From Spirochaetales bacterium (GTDB taxonomy: Bacteria; Spirochaetota; Spirochaetia; Treponematales; UBA12059): a DNA stretch of 56,366 nt. Under the pieces are notes generated by a model, which was given only the letters and a program-made list of their open reading frames with translations, searched no databases and was not told where the DNA came from. Location: contig JAFGJV010000059.1 of NCBI GenBank assembly GCA_016928955.1, positions 1 through 56,366 of the forward strand, in the 5' to 3' direction. The first letter of the stretch is position 1. Each line of letters begins with the position of its first letter. Shown one piece after another: positions 18,164 through 24,575 of this stretch. Both the position numbers and the translations under genes were made by a program.

Positions 18164-18475
18164 GTGGCAGATCATTCAGATGTGGAAAGCGGCGTACTCG
18201 TCGAGGACGCCCAGGAAACCAGGGAGCCGGATGAATACCGGGTCATACTCCTCAACGACGACTTCACCACGATGGAATTCGTGGTGGCTGTCGTGGTGTC
18301 CGTATTCCACAAGACCGTCGATGAGGCGACGCGCATCATGCTGGACGTGCACCGCAGAGGCCGGGGCATGGTAGGCGTGTACACGTATGACATAGCCGCC
18401 ACCAAAATTCAGCGCGTGCACGCTATGGCGCGGGACAAGGGTTTCCCGCTCAAATGCATCATGGAGAAGGCATAG
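18164..18475 (+). CDS. clpS: ATP-dependent Clp protease adaptor ClpS
   Basis: Adaptor of 103 aa that binds proteins with bulky hydrophobic N-terminal residues and hands them to ClpAP. The conserved core is present: YRVILLNDDFTTMEFVV, then HRRGRGMVGVYTYDIA and a C-terminal helix. The start is a GTG with no clear Shine-Dalgarno; another GTG six codons on is possible. clpA begins six bases after its stop, the classic pairing. Confidence 0.93.
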   Translation: MADHSDVESGVLVEDAQETREPDEYRVILLNDDFTTMEFVVAVVVSVFHKTVDEATRIMLDVHRRGRGMVGVYTYDIAATKIQRVHAMARDKGFPLKCIMEKA

Positions 18476-18481
18476 TTCACG

Positions 18482-20782
18482 ATGAAGGTAAGCCAGCAAG
18501 TCCAGGCCATATTCAACGCCGCGTACAACGAGGCCAAGCTCAGGAACCACGAGTACCTGACGCCGGAACACATCCTGTACGCGTCCCTGTCCTTTGAGCC
18601 GGTTAGGGCCATACTCACGGCCTGCGACGCGGATCTTGAGAACCTTAAGCAGGGCATGGAGGCGTATTTCGACCAGAAGATACCCGCGGTCAAGGACCAG
18701 GAGCCCATACAGACGGCCGGTTTCCAGAGCGTCATAGAGCGGGCCGTGCTGCAGTCCCAGGGCTCAGGCAAGCCGGAAGTCGGCATACCGGAAGTCCTTG
18801 TGTCCCTCTTCGACGAGGAGCGCAACTACTCCGCCTATTACCTGCGCAAATCCGGCGTCAACCGTCTCCACCTCCTTGAGGTGATCAGCCACGGGTCCGA
18901 CGCGGACGACGTTCCGCCTCCGGTGTTTGACGACCAGCACGACGACCAGGGCCCCTCCCCGTTCTCCGATCCGGACGACGAGGAAGCGGGCGCCAGGGCC
19001 CGCACCCGAACCACCATCAGGCCGGGCGCCCTTGAGCGCTTTACCACCGACCTGACCAAGCTGGCCAGAGAAGGCAAGCTGGAACCGGTCATAGGCCGCG
19101 AATCCGAGATAGAGCGCACCGTGCAGGTGCTGTGCAGAAGGCTCAAGAACAACCCCATTCACGTGGGCGACGCCGGCGTGGGCAAGACGGCCATCACCGA
19201 GGGCCTGGCCCAGCGCATCGTGGCGGGCACGGTGCCGGCGCGTCTCCGCGACTACGCCATCTTCAGCCTGGACATGGGCTCGCTGATAGCCGGCACCAAG
19301 TTCCGCGGCGACTTCGAGGAGCGGGTCAAGCGCGTGGTCGACGAGCTGCTCAAGAAGGAAAAGGTGATCCTGTTCATAGACGAGATCCACACCATCGTGG
19401 GCGCTGGATCGGTGACAGGCGGATCCATGGACGCGTCCAACCTCCTGAAGCCCGCCCTCACCTCGGGCCGCCTCCGCTGCATCGGCTCAACCACCTATGA
19501 CGAGTACAACAAATTCTTCGACAAGGACCGCGCCCTGTCGCGTCGCTTCCAGAAAATAGACATCGTTGAGCCCACCGTGGGCGAGGCCGTGGACATACTC
19601 AAGGGCCTCAGGCCCAAGTACGAGGAATACCACGACGTCCGCTACGACGACGAGGCCCTGGAGCTGGCGGCCAGGCTGTCCAGCCAGTTCATCACCGAGC
19701 GCCGCCTGCCTGACAAGGCCATAGACGTGATAGACGAGGCCGGCGCCTGGGCCCGCATACGCGCGTTCAAGGCCGGCGACGAGGCCGCCGGCACCCTGGG
19801 CATAGGGCGGCCCGAGATAGAGACCGTGGTCGCCAAGATCGCCCGCATACCGGAAAAGAGCGTGGGCCAGGACGAGCGCGACCGGCTGGCCCACCTGGAG
19901 CCGGACCTCAAGGCCGCCGTGTTCGGCCAGGACACCGCCATAGACGCCGTGGTCCGCGCGGTCAAGCGCAGCCGCGCCGGCTTCCGCTCCCCGGACAAGC
20001 CCGTGGCCAACTTCCTGTTCGTGGGGCCAACCGGAGTCGGCAAGACGGAACTGGCGCGCCAGCTGTCTGCCACGCTGGGCATAGCCCTGCATCGCTTTGA
20101 CATGTCCGAGTACCAGGAAAAGCACACGGTCAGCCGCCTGATCGGCTCGCCGCCCGGCTACGTGGGCTACGAGGAAGGCGGCCTGCTCACGGACGCCATC
20201 CGCAAGACGCCGCACGCCGTGGTCCTCCTGGACGAGATCGAGAAGGCCCACCCGGACGTGTACAACATCCTCTTATCCATCATGGATTACGCCACCCTGA
20301 CGGACAACCAGGGCCGCAAGGCGGATTTCCGCAACGTGATCCTGATCATGACCAGCAACGCGGGCGCCCGGGACATAGGCAAGCCGCTGATCGGCTTTGG
20401 CGAACGGGCCTTCACCGAGAGCGCCATAGACGACGCGGTGCAGAAGGCCTTCACGCCCGAATTCCGCAATCGCCTGGACGCGGTGGTGCGCTTCGGCCGC
20501 CTGCCCGCGCCCGTCATCGAACGCATCGTGTCCAAGGCCCTGGACGAGTTCCGCGCCCAGCTGACGGAGAAGAAGGTGACCCTGGACGTGTCGGACGCGG
20601 CGGTCAAGCGCCTGGCCGAGCTGGGGTATTCCGATGAGTTCGGCGCGCGCAACGTCGGCCGCGTGGTCGAGGACAAAATCAAGACCTGGTTCGTGGACGA
20701 GGTCCTGTTCGGACGCCTGCGCGACGGCGGCGCCGTATCCGCCGACGTCAAAGACGGCGAGATTACGCTCACGGTCGCCTGA
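18482..20782 (+). CDS. clpA: ATP-dependent Clp protease ATP-binding subunit ClpA
   Basis: Hexameric unfoldase of 766 aa that feeds substrates to ClpP. It has an N-domain (1-150) that would bind ClpS and an acidic linker (DDEEAGARA). The first AAA+ module has Walker A GDAGVGKT at about residue 229. The second has GPTGVGKT at about 515, with Walker B VVLLDEIEKAHPD. A PLIGFGE segment supplies the IGF-type ClpP-binding loop. ClpS lies directly upstream and Aat two genes downstream, which points to the leucine N-degron pathway. No clpP is in the window. Confidence 0.95.
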   Translation: MKVSQQVQAIFNAAYNEAKLRNHEYLTPEHILYASLSFEPVRAILTACDADLENLKQGMEAYFDQKIPAVKDQEPIQTAGFQSVIERAVLQSQGSGKPEVGIPEVLVSLFDEERNYSAYYLRKSGVNRLHLLEVISHGSDADDVPPPVFDDQHDDQGPSPFSDPDDEEAGARARTRTTIRPGALERFTTDLTKLAREGKLEPVIGRESEIERTVQVLCRRLKNNPIHVGDAGVGKTAITEGLAQRIVAGTVPARLRDYAIFSLDMGSLIAGTKFRGDFEERVKRVVDELLKKEKVILFIDEIHTIVGAGSVTGGSMDASNLLKPALTSGRLRCIGSTTYDEYNKFFDKDRALSRRFQKIDIVEPTVGEAVDILKGLRPKYEEYHDVRYDDEALELAARLSSQFITERRLPDKAIDVIDEAGAWARIRAFKAGDEAAGTLGIGRPEIETVVAKIARIPEKSVGQDERDRLAHLEPDLKAAVFGQDTAIDAVVRAVKRSRAGFRSPDKPVANFLFVGPTGVGKTELARQLSATLGIALHRFDMSEYQEKHTVSRLIGSPPGYVGYEEGGLLTDAIRKTPHAVVLLDEIEKAHPDVYNILLSIMDYATLTDNQGRKADFRNVILIMTSNAGARDIGKPLIGFGERAFTESAIDDAVQKAFTPEFRNRLDAVVRFGRLPAPVIERIVSKALDEFRAQLTEKKVTLDVSDAAVKRLAELGYSDEFGARNVGRVVEDKIKTWFVDEVLFGRLRDGGAVSADVKDGEITLTVA

Positions 20783-20840: not shown

Positions 20841-20898
20841 TGTGGACGGGCCGCCTGGGTGCGGTCCGTCGCCACTCAATTATATTTCGGAGCCCGGC

Positions 20899-21906
20899 AT
20901 GCCCACCAGCGAGACCCTACCCAAGCCCGTTCGCGTGCTTCCTACCGACCTGATCGTATTCGCCGAGGCGGCGTTCCTGTCCGCCCTGTGCTTTGCCCAC
21001 CCCCATGCCGGCCCCTTCTCGGTCATGGGCGTGAGCCTGTCGGCCGCGTGGATGGCTGGCGTGCTGGACGCGGCCCTGGCCGTCCTGGCCCTGGCCATGC
21101 CGGTGCTGGTCAAGCCGGACGCCCATCCCGTCCTGCGCTTCTTGCGGACCTTCTATCCCCAGCTTCTGTCCGCCCTGTTTTTCTTCCAGGTCATCTTCCT
21201 GTCGTCCCTCGTATTCGGGGGCTACAGCCATGACGCCTTTTTCGAGTCCATAGACCAGGCGGTGTTCGGTTTCCAGCCAGCGCGGGAATTCAGCGCTGCC
21301 TTCTCCCACAACGCCTGGCTCAACGAGCTCATGTTCACCGCCTACTGCTCGTATTTCGTGCTGCTGGCCGTAACCCCGTGGATACCCTGGTTCATGGGCC
21401 GCAAGGACGAGGCCGAGCGCCAGCTGTTCGTGTTCGTGGCCCTGTCGGCCATCTTGGACATCTGGTACGTGTTCTTCCGCGTCCAGGGGCCAAAATACTG
21501 GATGCCCGATCTCCGCGAGCTGTGGTATGGGCACTTCCAGGGCGGGCCCATCACCCATTTCTTCCAGAACGGCGTGGATACCGTGACCCTGTCCGGAGCT
21601 GCCTTCCCGTCGTCGCACATGGCCGAGATGACCATGTTCTGCATCCTGGCGGCCCGCAGCCACAAAAAACTGGCCGCCTTCTACGTGCCCTGGACCGTGA
21701 TTATCGGCGCGGCGACCATCTACCTCTACGCGCATTACGCCGTAGACTCAGTGGCCGGCGTTGTGGTCGGCCTGGCCCTGACCTATGCCCTGCTCGCGCT
21801 GTCAGGCCGCGCGTCCGCGCTCGCTGGTTCCGTTGCCTCGCTGTACGGACGACTGCGCCTGTGGTTGGCCAGGCGGCCGGGAATTGCCAAGGCGCCGCCG
21901 GCATGA
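20899..21906 (+). CDS. PAP2-superfamily membrane phosphatase / phosphotransferase-like protein
   Basis: A membrane protein of 335 aa with about six helices. The PAP2/Aur1-type phosphatase motifs are visible near the C-terminus: FPSSHMAEM (contains SxxH) and YAHYAVDSVAG (HxxxD). The ATG at 20899 is chosen because GGAG sits seven bases upstream; a GTG at 20842 has no ribosome site. It probably acts on lipid phosphates or transfers inositol-phosphate-like head groups, but the substrate cannot be read from sequence. The stop overlaps the aat start. Confidence 0.8.
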   Translation: MPTSETLPKPVRVLPTDLIVFAEAAFLSALCFAHPHAGPFSVMGVSLSAAWMAGVLDAALAVLALAMPVLVKPDAHPVLRFLRTFYPQLLSALFFFQVIFLSSLVFGGYSHDAFFESIDQAVFGFQPAREFSAAFSHNAWLNELMFTAYCSYFVLLAVTPWIPWFMGRKDEAERQLFVFVALSAILDIWYVFFRVQGPKYWMPDLRELWYGHFQGGPITHFFQNGVDTVTLSGAAFPSSHMAEMTMFCILAARSHKKLAAFYVPWTVIIGAATIYLYAHYAVDSVAGVVVGLALTYALLALSGRASALAGSVASLYGRLRLWLARRPGIAKAPPA

Positions 21907-22679
21907 GGACGGGCGTCGACCCGAACTTTCCCTGGTACGAGGCCCATGAAGGCTTCTCCTTTCCCCCTCCGGACCGCGCCGATCCCCGCGGCATCGTGTG
22001 CACGGGCGGCAACCTGTCGCCGGGCCTGCTCCTATCGGCCTACAGCCAGGGCATCTTCCCGTGGTACAGCTCCGGCGAGCCCCTGATATGGTGGAGCCCG
22101 GATCCGCGCTTTGTGCTCTTTCCTCAAGAACTGCACGTGTCCGGCACCATGCGCAAAATCATCAAAAAACGTCGCTTCAGGCTCAGTGTGGACCAGGCGT
22201 TCGGCAGGGTGATCCGGGCCTGTTCCGGCGTCAAACGGCCGGGACAGCGGGGCACCTGGATAGTGCCGGACATGGTGGACGGCTACGAGCGCCTGCACGC
22301 CCTGGGCTACGCCCATTCGGCGGAAGCATGGCTTGACGACGAGCTCGTGGGAGGCCTGTACGGCGTTTCCCTAGGCTCGCTGTTCTTTGGCGAGTCCATG
22401 TTCAGCCTGGTTCCTGACGCGTCCAAGGCGGTGTTCATACCTCTGGTGTGGCGCCTGGCCGACGAAGGCTGTACCCTGATCGACAGCCAGGTGCGTACCG
22501 ACCATGTGGCCGGCATGGGCGGCCGCGACATCATGCGGAGCGAGTACCTGGGCATCCTGTCCGCCTGCATCCGCCACCCGGGCTTCAGGGGTAACTGGGG
22601 CTCGCTCTTTCCCGATTTCCCCGAGTCCGGCCCCTGGAACGCCCTTGCCGGCGGCAAAACGGCAAATCCGCAGGAATAA
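21903..22679 (+). CDS. aat: Leucyl/phenylalanyl-tRNA--protein transferase
   Basis: Adds Leu or Phe from charged tRNA to proteins with N-terminal Lys or Arg, marking them for ClpS-ClpAP. The 258-aa protein shows the family signatures GGNLSPGLLLSAYSQGIFPW and WWSPDPRF, then GLYGVSLGSLFFGESMFS and the C-terminal LIDSQVRTDH. The ATG at 21903 overlaps the PAP2 stop; earlier in-frame starts lie inside PAP2. With clpS and clpA nearby it completes the bacterial Leu/N-degron pathway. Confidence 0.95.
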   Translation: MRTGVDPNFPWYEAHEGFSFPPPDRADPRGIVCTGGNLSPGLLLSAYSQGIFPWYSSGEPLIWWSPDPRFVLFPQELHVSGTMRKIIKKRRFRLSVDQAFGRVIRACSGVKRPGQRGTWIVPDMVDGYERLHALGYAHSAEAWLDDELVGGLYGVSLGSLFFGESMFSLVPDASKAVFIPLVWRLADEGCTLIDSQVRTDHVAGMGGRDIMRSEYLGILSACIRHPGFRGNWGSLFPDFPESGPWNALAGGKTANPQE

Positions 22680-22760: not shown

Positions 22761-24575
22761 ATGAACGTCATCTTTATCGAACTGCCCAAACAAGACCCGG
22801 ACGGAGAGTCGGCGCGCGACTCGGTGCCGTACGCGGCGGCCAGACTGGCCGCCCAGGCTGAAGCCCGAGGCGCCCTGGCCCGCGCGGACTGGGCTTTTCT
22901 TGACCAGGACACGTCCGACCACGGCGGCGACGCGGCCGTATGCTCGGCCGTGCTTAGCGCCCAACCCGAGCTGGCCGTATTTTGCCTCCGGTCCTGGAAC
23001 CTGGACAGGAGCATTTGGGTTGCCAAACGCATACGCGCCCTCCTCCCCGCCACCCATCTGGCCGCCTTCGGCCCAGAGGCCGCCGATTCGTCCGGCCTCC
23101 TGCGCGAACAGGCCTTTGACGCCATCATTGAGGGCGAGGCAGAGGACGCCTTCCTGGACCTTCTTGAGGACGCGGCCAACCGCTCCCTGAAACCCCGCTA
23201 CACGTCGGCCGCGCCCGCGAACTTTGTGGCCCTGCCCGACCCCTACCTGGCCGGCGTCCTGGCCCCGGCTCCGGGCAAGCCCGTATACTTCGAGGCCCGC
23301 AGGGGCTCGGGCCGCGCCTGCCCGCTACGCTACGAGCCATGGCCGCAGGGCCTGGTGCGCGAAGCGCCCAAAGACCACGCGCCCAGGCTGCTCAGGCTGG
23401 CGTCGGACAAGGGAGCCTCAGGCTTCCGGATCAGGGGCGGGGCCTACCCGCAGGGCCCGGACGCGGCATCTGCACTCAAGGCCCTGGCCGCCGCGAACGA
23501 AGGCGGCGTGCCCGTGTACGCCGAGCTGGACCCGTCGGCCATAGGAGACGATGAGGCGTTCCTGTGGTCGGACGCCGCCCTTGCCGAGGCCCGGGCGCCC
23601 CTGGTCAGCGTCAACCCTGCCAGCCTGTCCGCCCTCGGGCTCAGCCTGGACCGCGACGCCTTTGAGGCAGGCATCCACGCCCTGTGGACCCAGGGCCTCC
23701 ACGTCAAACCCGCCCTGATCTTGGGCCTCCCGCACGACGCGTACGAGAACGTCATAGACAGCTTTGACTACCTGGGCATGGCCGGCATGGGCCAGGACAC
23801 GGAACTCTGGCCCCTGGCCGTAAAGCCGGGCACCCTCATACGCGCGTCCACCCACGACTACGGCATACGGGAATTCCTGGAACGGCCCCCGTACTGGACC
23901 GTGGAAACCGAGTGGATGGAAGAGGACGATTTCCTGGACGCGGTGGCCGATTTTGAGGAAAGCTTTGACGTTGCCCTGGCCGCCCCGGTCAAACCCTGCT
24001 TCAAGCCCAGCCGCGGCGGTTTTACGTCCTTTGCCGACCTCCGGACGGACTCCGGCCTGGACGCCCTCGTGATGTCGCCCGAAAAACTGGCGTCGTCAGT
24101 GACCCTGCTGCTGTCGGCCGACGACCCTGACCAGGCTGCCCGCGTGGCCAGGGCCGCCCGGTCGCTCAAGCGGGAGAATCCGTACACGCTGTGGCAGCTG
24201 GTCCTGGTGTCTGACGCCGGTCTGCCCCCGGACGCCGTGCTGTCCCGCCTGGCGGACGCCTTTTCCCAGCCCGAACATTATTTTGAGCTGGAGCGCCTGT
24301 ACTCTCTGGATCCCCAGCCGACGTTCCAGACCCGCCTGTTTTTCTGCACCCGTTCCGAGCCCCTGGCCCTGAGGGCGCTCAAGGAGCTCCCCAGGCTGGA
24401 AACCCTGTACCTGCTTGGACAGGCCCTGCCCGGCCCCAAGCTCCTTGAGGCCTTTCCCTTCCTGGCCTTTGACCGCGACGCCACGCCCTTTGAGCTTCTC
24501 TATGACGTGATGAGCGCCTACCGCGACTTCCCGGACCTCCTGGTGGAAGCCCCCAGGGAGCTGTTCGGTCCATAA
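22761..24575 (+). CDS. Radical-SAM/B12-binding-like protein lacking the cluster cysteines
   Basis: A 604-aa protein with the layout of a B12-binding-domain radical SAM enzyme. The N-terminal Rossmann-like part includes LRSWNLDRSIWVAKRIRALL (about 79-98), like the cobalamin domain of BchE-type proteins. A barrel follows, with HVKPALILGLPHDAYEN resembling the family's late strand. Where CxxxCxxC should occur the text reads ARRGSGRACPLRYEPW (about 175-190), leaving a single Cys, so no iron-sulfur cluster can form there. The C-terminal 200 residues are unassigned. Intact reading frame and codon use argue for a maintained pseudoenzyme rather than decay. Confidence 0.6.
   Translation: MNVIFIELPKQDPDGESARDSVPYAAARLAAQAEARGALARADWAFLDQDTSDHGGDAAVCSAVLSAQPELAVFCLRSWNLDRSIWVAKRIRALLPATHLAAFGPEAADSSGLLREQAFDAIIEGEAEDAFLDLLEDAANRSLKPRYTSAAPANFVALPDPYLAGVLAPAPGKPVYFEARRGSGRACPLRYEPWPQGLVREAPKDHAPRLLRLASDKGASGFRIRGGAYPQGPDAASALKALAAANEGGVPVYAELDPSAIGDDEAFLWSDAALAEARAPLVSVNPASLSALGLSLDRDAFEAGIHALWTQGLHVKPALILGLPHDAYENVIDSFDYLGMAGMGQDTELWPLAVKPGTLIRASTHDYGIREFLERPPYWTVETEWMEEDDFLDAVADFEESFDVALAAPVKPCFKPSRGGFTSFADLRTDSGLDALVMSPEKLASSVTLLLSADDPDQAARVARAARSLKRENPYTLWQLVLVSDAGLPPDAVLSRLADAFSQPEHYFELERLYSLDPQPTFQTRLFFCTRSEPLALRALKELPRLETLYLLGQALPGPKLLEAFPFLAFDRDATPFELLYDVMSAYRDFPDLLVEAPRELFGP

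Follow-up and report, generated by a model that had tools for sequence, protein, structure and literature searches.

The locus described here raises the question of why a gene with the layout of a cobalamin-dependent radical-SAM enzyme is kept without the cluster cysteines. The window, i.e. the whole stretch of 56,366 nucleotides that was analysed, belongs to a genome (G000) of 2.87 Mb in 59 contigs. At positions 22,761 to 24,575 of the forward strand it carries an open reading frame of 604 codons, with an ATG start, GGGAAGGG a short way upstream of it, and a TAA stop, so that the intact frame reported in an earlier note on this DNA is confirmed. The product, a pseudo radical-SAM protein of 604 residues, was delineated by combining the reading frame, Pfam searches, ortholog comparison and the predicted fold; it consists of a cobalamin-type Rossmann domain, a radical-SAM barrel devoid of cluster cysteines and a C-terminal domain. 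In the following, f1 indicates the family to which the window belongs, a spirochaete one, and f4 its sister family.

The place occupied by CxxxCxxC in radical-SAM enzymes is taken by RGSGRACPLRYEPW in the window protein. This sequence, which replaces RGCxxxCxYCxYGK, lies within the former cluster loop (approximately residues 172-200; 23,274 to 23,360, + strand), as defined by alignment and conservation. Residues 179-194 read ARRGSGRACPLRYEPW, where the intact orthologs, used as alignment reference, have RGCPYRCAYCFYGK. In the alignment to these orthologs, S183 and R190 occupy the places of the first and the third cluster cysteine, and C187 is the sole cysteine at a cluster position, the middle one; this segment can be aligned in more than one way, with shifts of a few residues. 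The entire protein contains five cysteines, none of them in CxxxCxxC spacing.

The N-terminal cobalamin-type Rossmann domain (approximately residues 1-145; 22,761 to 23,195, + strand) includes W79 and F103 and was recognized by a sub-threshold match to the B12-binding model PF02310 (16.6 bits against a cut-off of 32.1), by alignment columns and by the alignment of the f4 profile to TokK. The remaining barrel and the segment following it (approximately residues 206-404; 23,376 to 23,972, + strand) were assigned by alignment and predicted fold; SAM-site residues are replaced, and the GLP strand is kept. The Radical_SAM profile PF04055 does not match the window protein in the Pfam search, and scores 14.1 bits for the f1 relative L005 (cut-off 29.5) and 52 bits for the f4 copy L024. 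The C-terminal domain (approximately residues 405-604; 23,973 to 24,572, + strand), delimited by conservation and dN/dS, matches no Pfam family above cut-off; its identity, 0.60 within f1 and 0.47 between f1 and f4, is the highest among the large domains.

The fold was predicted by AlphaFold2 from an alignment of 30 orthologs, composed of 19 f1 and 11 intact f4 rows, and the model thus leans partly on f4. The structure prediction suggested in the earlier note returned a cobalamin/radical-SAM fold with a mean pLDDT of 92.8 and a pTM of 0.91; the model of the f4 copy L024 reached a pLDDT of 91.1. Comparison by VIA-align with CysS (9n1d) gave a Z of 31.6 over 394 residues with an rmsd of 3.1, followed by AprD4 (26.9), MgmA (25.0), OxsB (24.3), TsrM (23.8) and TokK (22.9), the alignments with class 1 cobalamin-dependent radical-SAM enzymes extending over about 376-411 residues. 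TokK ranks at the top of the Foldseek search and is the only PDB sequence match of the window protein (E 8.9e-6), while a search with the intact f4 profile gives E values of 1.5e-27 for TokK and 1.2e-21 for CysS. The radical-SAM barrel fold is therefore present in the window protein, according to the model, in which 11 of 30 input rows were intact f4 copies, and to the PDB comparison; the succession of cobalamin Rossmann domain, barrel and C-terminal domain is also found in the model. Reading frame, cysteine count, alignment and fold all bear out the plan originally proposed, a B12 domain plus barrel without CxxxCxxC. Membership of an unrelated protein family, which would have spoken against that proposal, was ruled out by the homology of the f4 profile to TokK and by the fold match to the CysS/TokK group, both pointing to radical-SAM kin. 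The window protein descends from class 1 cobalamin-dependent radical-SAM enzymes, of which it is a derived and apparently non-catalytic offshoot.

The distribution of the gene was evaluated with a search profile built from 20 orthologs. At E <= 1e-60 the gene was matched in 20 of the 23 f1 genomes, the exceptions being G007, which is 99% complete, and two genomes of 57% and 67% completeness. The search of the order (291 genomes) revealed 51 matching genomes, 20 of f1, 30 of f4 and one of f2, and that of the class (394 genomes, E <= 1e-50) 18, of which eight belong to f1, two to f4 and eight to five further families. CxxxCxxC is kept in none of the 20 main-locus copies of f1, and is intact in all 29 f4 copies examined, taken from 29 of the 30 matching f4 genomes. 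Ten of ten other homologs, i.e. the f2 copy, all eight class-level homologs and an extra copy in the f1 genome G006, also have the full motif. Among the f1 copies the first cluster cysteine is found in 3/20, the second in 5/20 and the third in 0/20, and several copies carry deletions. The homolog search foreseen in the earlier note thus makes the cysteine loss common to all 20 f1 copies. In the tree, f1 is a single clade (support 100/100), f4 is supported at 99/97, and once intact outgroups are included the two families group together at 98/89. Alignment and trees, taken together, indicate that the catalytic residues are gone from the whole f1 clade while intact relatives exist. Because f1 forms one clade, a single loss of the motif on the f1 stem would be the simplest history.

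A frameshifted or mis-assembled gene was ruled out, as the copies of 20 genomes out of 20 agree, and so was a relocation of the cluster elsewhere in the protein, no cysteine column being shared by more than 7 of the 20 f1 copies. The possibility that each genome holds a dead and an active member of this family was likewise discarded, only G006, one of the 23 f1 genomes, having an intact relative at E <= 1e-60. This relative (L060, contig C3) is a distant intact homolog, present besides the dead copy and away from the clp genes, and was possibly acquired horizontally.

Remnants of the cluster are two cysteines in genus g10 and one in the window protein and its nearest relative, and suggest an order of events in which the third cysteine would have been lost first. 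Genus g10 (L014, L015, L019) keeps the first two cluster cysteines together with a histidine at the under-cobalt position (PHNLDRS), and may correspond to an intermediate stage or to a different ligand state.

The extent of erosion was evaluated by region, as the mean share of f4-invariant sites still matching in f1. This share falls to 0.29 for the cluster loop and amounts to 0.59 for the remaining barrel, 0.77 for residues 366-405, 0.69 for the C-terminal domain and 0.72 for the cobalamin domain; with another, slightly altered set of rows the latter two values become 0.75 and 0.68, respectively. The 26-residue cluster loop shows the steepest loss of conservation, with an f1-to-f4 ratio of 0.35 against 0.53 for the lowest non-overlapping window elsewhere, and when sites invariant in f4 were drawn at random, only 6 of 20,000 sets were kept as poorly; for these reasons, the loss at the cluster loop exceeds chance. 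Compared with one another, the f1 copies are on average least identical in the loop (0.29), followed by the barrel (0.46) and the cobalamin domain (0.50), and most identical in the C-terminal domain (0.60). Three f4-invariant barrel residues, judged by their position to be SAM contacts, are also depleted in f1: E284 and Q288 (0/20 each) and R263 (2/20). All 28 f4 copies in which neither position is gapped have the R263-E284 pair, which appears charge-reversed, as D-R, in 8 of the 20 f1 copies, a swap which suggests that a structural contact was kept and a ligand contact dropped. At about 20 positions f1 has a fixed residue that differs from the one in f4. A genome-wide loss of iron-sulphur or cobalamin use was ruled out by an intact paralog in G000, carrying CPYRCAFC. 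This cobalamin/radical-SAM paralog (L002:1024-3536, contig C45) is about 30% identical and is located on the same strand, directly after a putative Sir2-type deacylase gene.

The explanation favoured here, and considered quite probable, is that the gene encodes an old, maintained, lineage-wide pseudoenzyme of cobalamin-dependent radical-SAM descent, which would now act by binding. It may alternatively be supposed that radical chemistry alone was lost, and that the f1 protein is a cofactor-dependent sensor or carrier to which cobalamin, or another small ligand, still binds. The Rossmann domain is indeed kept in f1 (retention 0.72), and so are N80 (18/20) and R83 (19/20); in addition, the tryptophan aligned with Trp76 of TokK is found in 9/20 f1 copies, including W79 of the window protein, although the share in intact copies is 39/39. 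The Gly-Gly turn, which we take to be a functional motif of the cobalamin domain, argues in the opposite direction: the first glycine of GGP is present in only 5/20 f1 copies, being replaced by F103 in the window protein, against 29/29 f4 copies and 10/10 other intact homologs. The residue under the cobalt, furthermore, varies across f1 (W in nine copies, Y in four, H in four, F and S in one each, with one row gapped), a drift unexpected of a conserved ligand site; passages of PMC13331322 and PMC12846815 place Trp76 of TokK and Trp75 of CysS below the cobalt. Since both the glycine and the tryptophan are eroded, cobalamin binding in f1 is doubtful, and a sensor or carrier is regarded as unlikely. 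That the protein is still an enzyme, its barrel running a different, cluster-free reaction, would find some basis in newly fixed residues, namely D271 (20/20) and an Asp at the old R263 position (16/20). No conserved catalytic constellation was recognized at the old site in f1, however, the former cluster loop is hypervariable and the conserved cysteine column that might replace it is missing, which makes such an enzyme highly improbable.

A gene without present function, slowly decaying on its way to loss, would in turn be expected to show the erosion of several functional sites just described, and other data may be read in the same way. The f1 copies evolve faster than those of f4, at 3.24 times the rate of ClpA compared to 1.81 times (a 1.8-fold difference), and at 1.50 relative to Aat compared to 0.72 (about 2-fold). 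An in-frame TAG is present in one f1 copy, and the gene seems dispensable in G007, as this 99% complete genome lacks it. The frame nevertheless remains open over about 600 residues in 16 of the 17 copies uncut by contig ends, in relatives that share 44-64% identity with the window protein; overall, the 20 f1 copies comprise 16 full-length ones with an open frame, three whose frame is open as far as the contig end that truncates it, and one (L015) with the internal TAG. This stop, at about codon 500 in an assembly of 550 contigs, may be an error or mark a true pseudogene. Pairwise NG86 estimates, on which the evidence of purifying selection is based, gave whole-gene dN/dS values far below 1, of 0.065-0.213 in nine of ten f1 pairs, the tenth having saturated dS, and of 0.036-0.294 in the four usable of five f4 pairs. 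Seven of the nine f1 pairs that could be used have a lower dN/dS in the C-terminal domain than in the cobalamin domain. The positions newly fixed in f1 and the confident predicted fold also speak against decay, which is accordingly held to be very unlikely. The dN/dS check recommended in the earlier note therefore indicates a maintained gene. Intact homologs coupled with decay in this copy had been named there as grounds for abandoning the idea; the former do exist, but the latter is not apparent in the window copy. Because f1 copies outpace those of f4 relative to both ClpA and Aat, constraint in f1 appears relaxed compared to the intact form, yet real.

The gene closes a conserved run on the + strand of the window. 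The run begins with clpS, the N-degron adaptor (18,164 to 18,475; PF02617, NF000672), and continues with clpA, the unfoldase (18,482 to 20,782; TIGR02639, 1079 bits), a PAP2-family gene (20,842 to 21,906; PF14378 and gene order) and aat, encoding the leucyl/phenylalanyl-tRNA-protein transferase (21,945 to 22,679, with an approximate annotated start; PF03588, TIGR00667), 81 bp upstream of the radical-SAM-like gene. The N-degron neighbours noted earlier are thereby confirmed by profile. The PAP2-family gene separates clpA from aat in the window and in some other f1 and some f4 loci, and is missing from others. A second Leu_Phe_trans profile match, besides aat, occurs in many f1 and f5 genomes, including G000. 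Downstream, on the opposite strand, profiles identify a 2-hydroxyacid dehydrogenase and a sigma-70 factor. A riboswitch was discounted, as nothing in the window matches Rfam, and so was a promoter inside the run, where one promoter-like site was detected against 0.9 expected by shuffling.

In all 21 f4 loci examined, aat immediately precedes the gene and has the same orientation, the estimated gap ranging from -13 to +84 bp. The corresponding gap is -9 to +94 bp in 15 of 20 f1 loci; of the others, one has 1.7 kb between aat and the gene, the two of genus g3 are unlinked and two are truncated at contig ends. Four loci examined in f3 and f5 contain clpS-clpA-aat without the gene, and so does the f1 genome G007 (L099, contig C61; 99% complete). 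Because the triad stands alone in these genomes, it is probably the older arrangement, to which the radical-SAM gene was added later. A search with PF03588 detected aat in 224 of the 291 genomes of the order, and aat is for this reason independent of the radical-SAM gene. Within the stretches examined around the f2 copy, the class-level homologs and the extra G006 copy, all of them intact, no clp genes were found, and no neighbour common to these non-operon homologs was seen by eye among their open frames. The genes on the far side of the locus are likewise conserved, and part of the conserved order may reflect inertia.

The results may be arranged in the following scenario. The ancestor would have been a class 1 cobalamin-dependent radical-SAM enzyme, encoded by the last gene of the clpS-clpA-aat run before f1 and f4 split. 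The [4Fe-4S] site would then have been lost on the f1 stem, the third cysteine from all copies and the other two from most, and residues of the SAM and cobalamin sites would have eroded. Purifying selection continued to act on the fold, in which the C-terminal domain stands out. As cluster and SAM site are lost and the C-terminal domain is well kept, the f1 protein most likely binds the old target of the enzyme, a partner or substrate recognized by the ancestor. In this respect, passages of PMC11659888 describe substrate and cobalamin binding by the C-terminal domain of TsrM and TokK, and PMC12846815 mentions a residue near the substrate carried by that of CysS. The C-terminal domain is not ahead on every measure, its retention of f4-invariant sites being 0.69 compared to 0.72 for the cobalamin domain. 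We infer that radical chemistry is absent in the f1 protein, and the pseudoenzyme part of the explanation is well supported by sequence. The earlier note had likewise suggested a maintained pseudoenzyme beside N-degron genes, in favour of which family-wide cysteine loss, purifying selection, fold and neighbours can now be cited.

The nature of the partner is a more tentative matter. The tight linkage of the intact form to aat makes Aat, ClpS, ClpA or a client of theirs candidates for this partner, and a role as scaffold or modulator of the N-degron pathway, suggested by gene order, is possible but on the doubtful side. The link is weak, since the gene is unlinked in the two g3 genomes, aat is 1.7 kb off in another, and the triad occurs elsewhere in the order without it. 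A more specific proposal, speculative and rather unlikely, is that the N-degron machinery of these two spirochaete families has a fourth component so far unrecognized: the f4 enzyme would modify a component or client of the pathway, and the f1 protein would be a non-catalytic adaptor, contacting the same partner chiefly through its C-terminal domain. If so, bacterial N-degron proteolysis might include an extra player.

Pseudoenzymes have been well studied among kinases and proteases. Radical-SAM pseudoenzymes are seldom described, chemistry seeming to be the whole point of radical-SAM enzymes. The locus provides a matched pair, an apparently working enzyme in f4 and a long-dead, maintained counterpart in f1, and thereby offers a way to explore which tasks such an enzyme has apart from catalysis. 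We know of no radical-SAM-type component of the ClpS-ClpA-Aat pathway, which the gene normally joins in both families by following aat. In the open-access literature, titles and abstract openings among the matches listed mention neither a link between N-degrons and radical-SAM proteins nor a comparable radical-SAM pseudoenzyme.

Among known systems, the class 1 enzymes TokK, CysS, OxsB and TsrM share with the window protein the plan of Rossmann cobalamin domain, barrel and C-terminal domain; in contrast to them, all f1 copies examined are devoid of the cluster motif, and most also of the SAM-site residues and of the GG turn. The best NCBIfam match of an intact f4 copy is the KedN5 family of methylcobalamin-dependent radical-SAM C-methyltransferases (NF033712, 86 bits), to which the window protein is weakly similar (18 bits), both scores being far below the 700-bit cut-off, so that neither is a member. 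The pseudo-rSAM proteins of peptide-modification cassettes, defined by NCBIfam models and of SPASM type, are likewise radical-SAM-like, lack the cluster motif and accompany a partner system. The window protein differs from them in being of cobalamin type, in its position beside clpS-clpA-aat and in that the corresponding f4 locus carries intact orthologs. The known kind is thus the pseudo-rSAM protein; a case of cobalamin type that combines family-wide erasure, an intact twin at the corresponding locus and N-degron linkage did not appear among the matches listed in the open-access literature.
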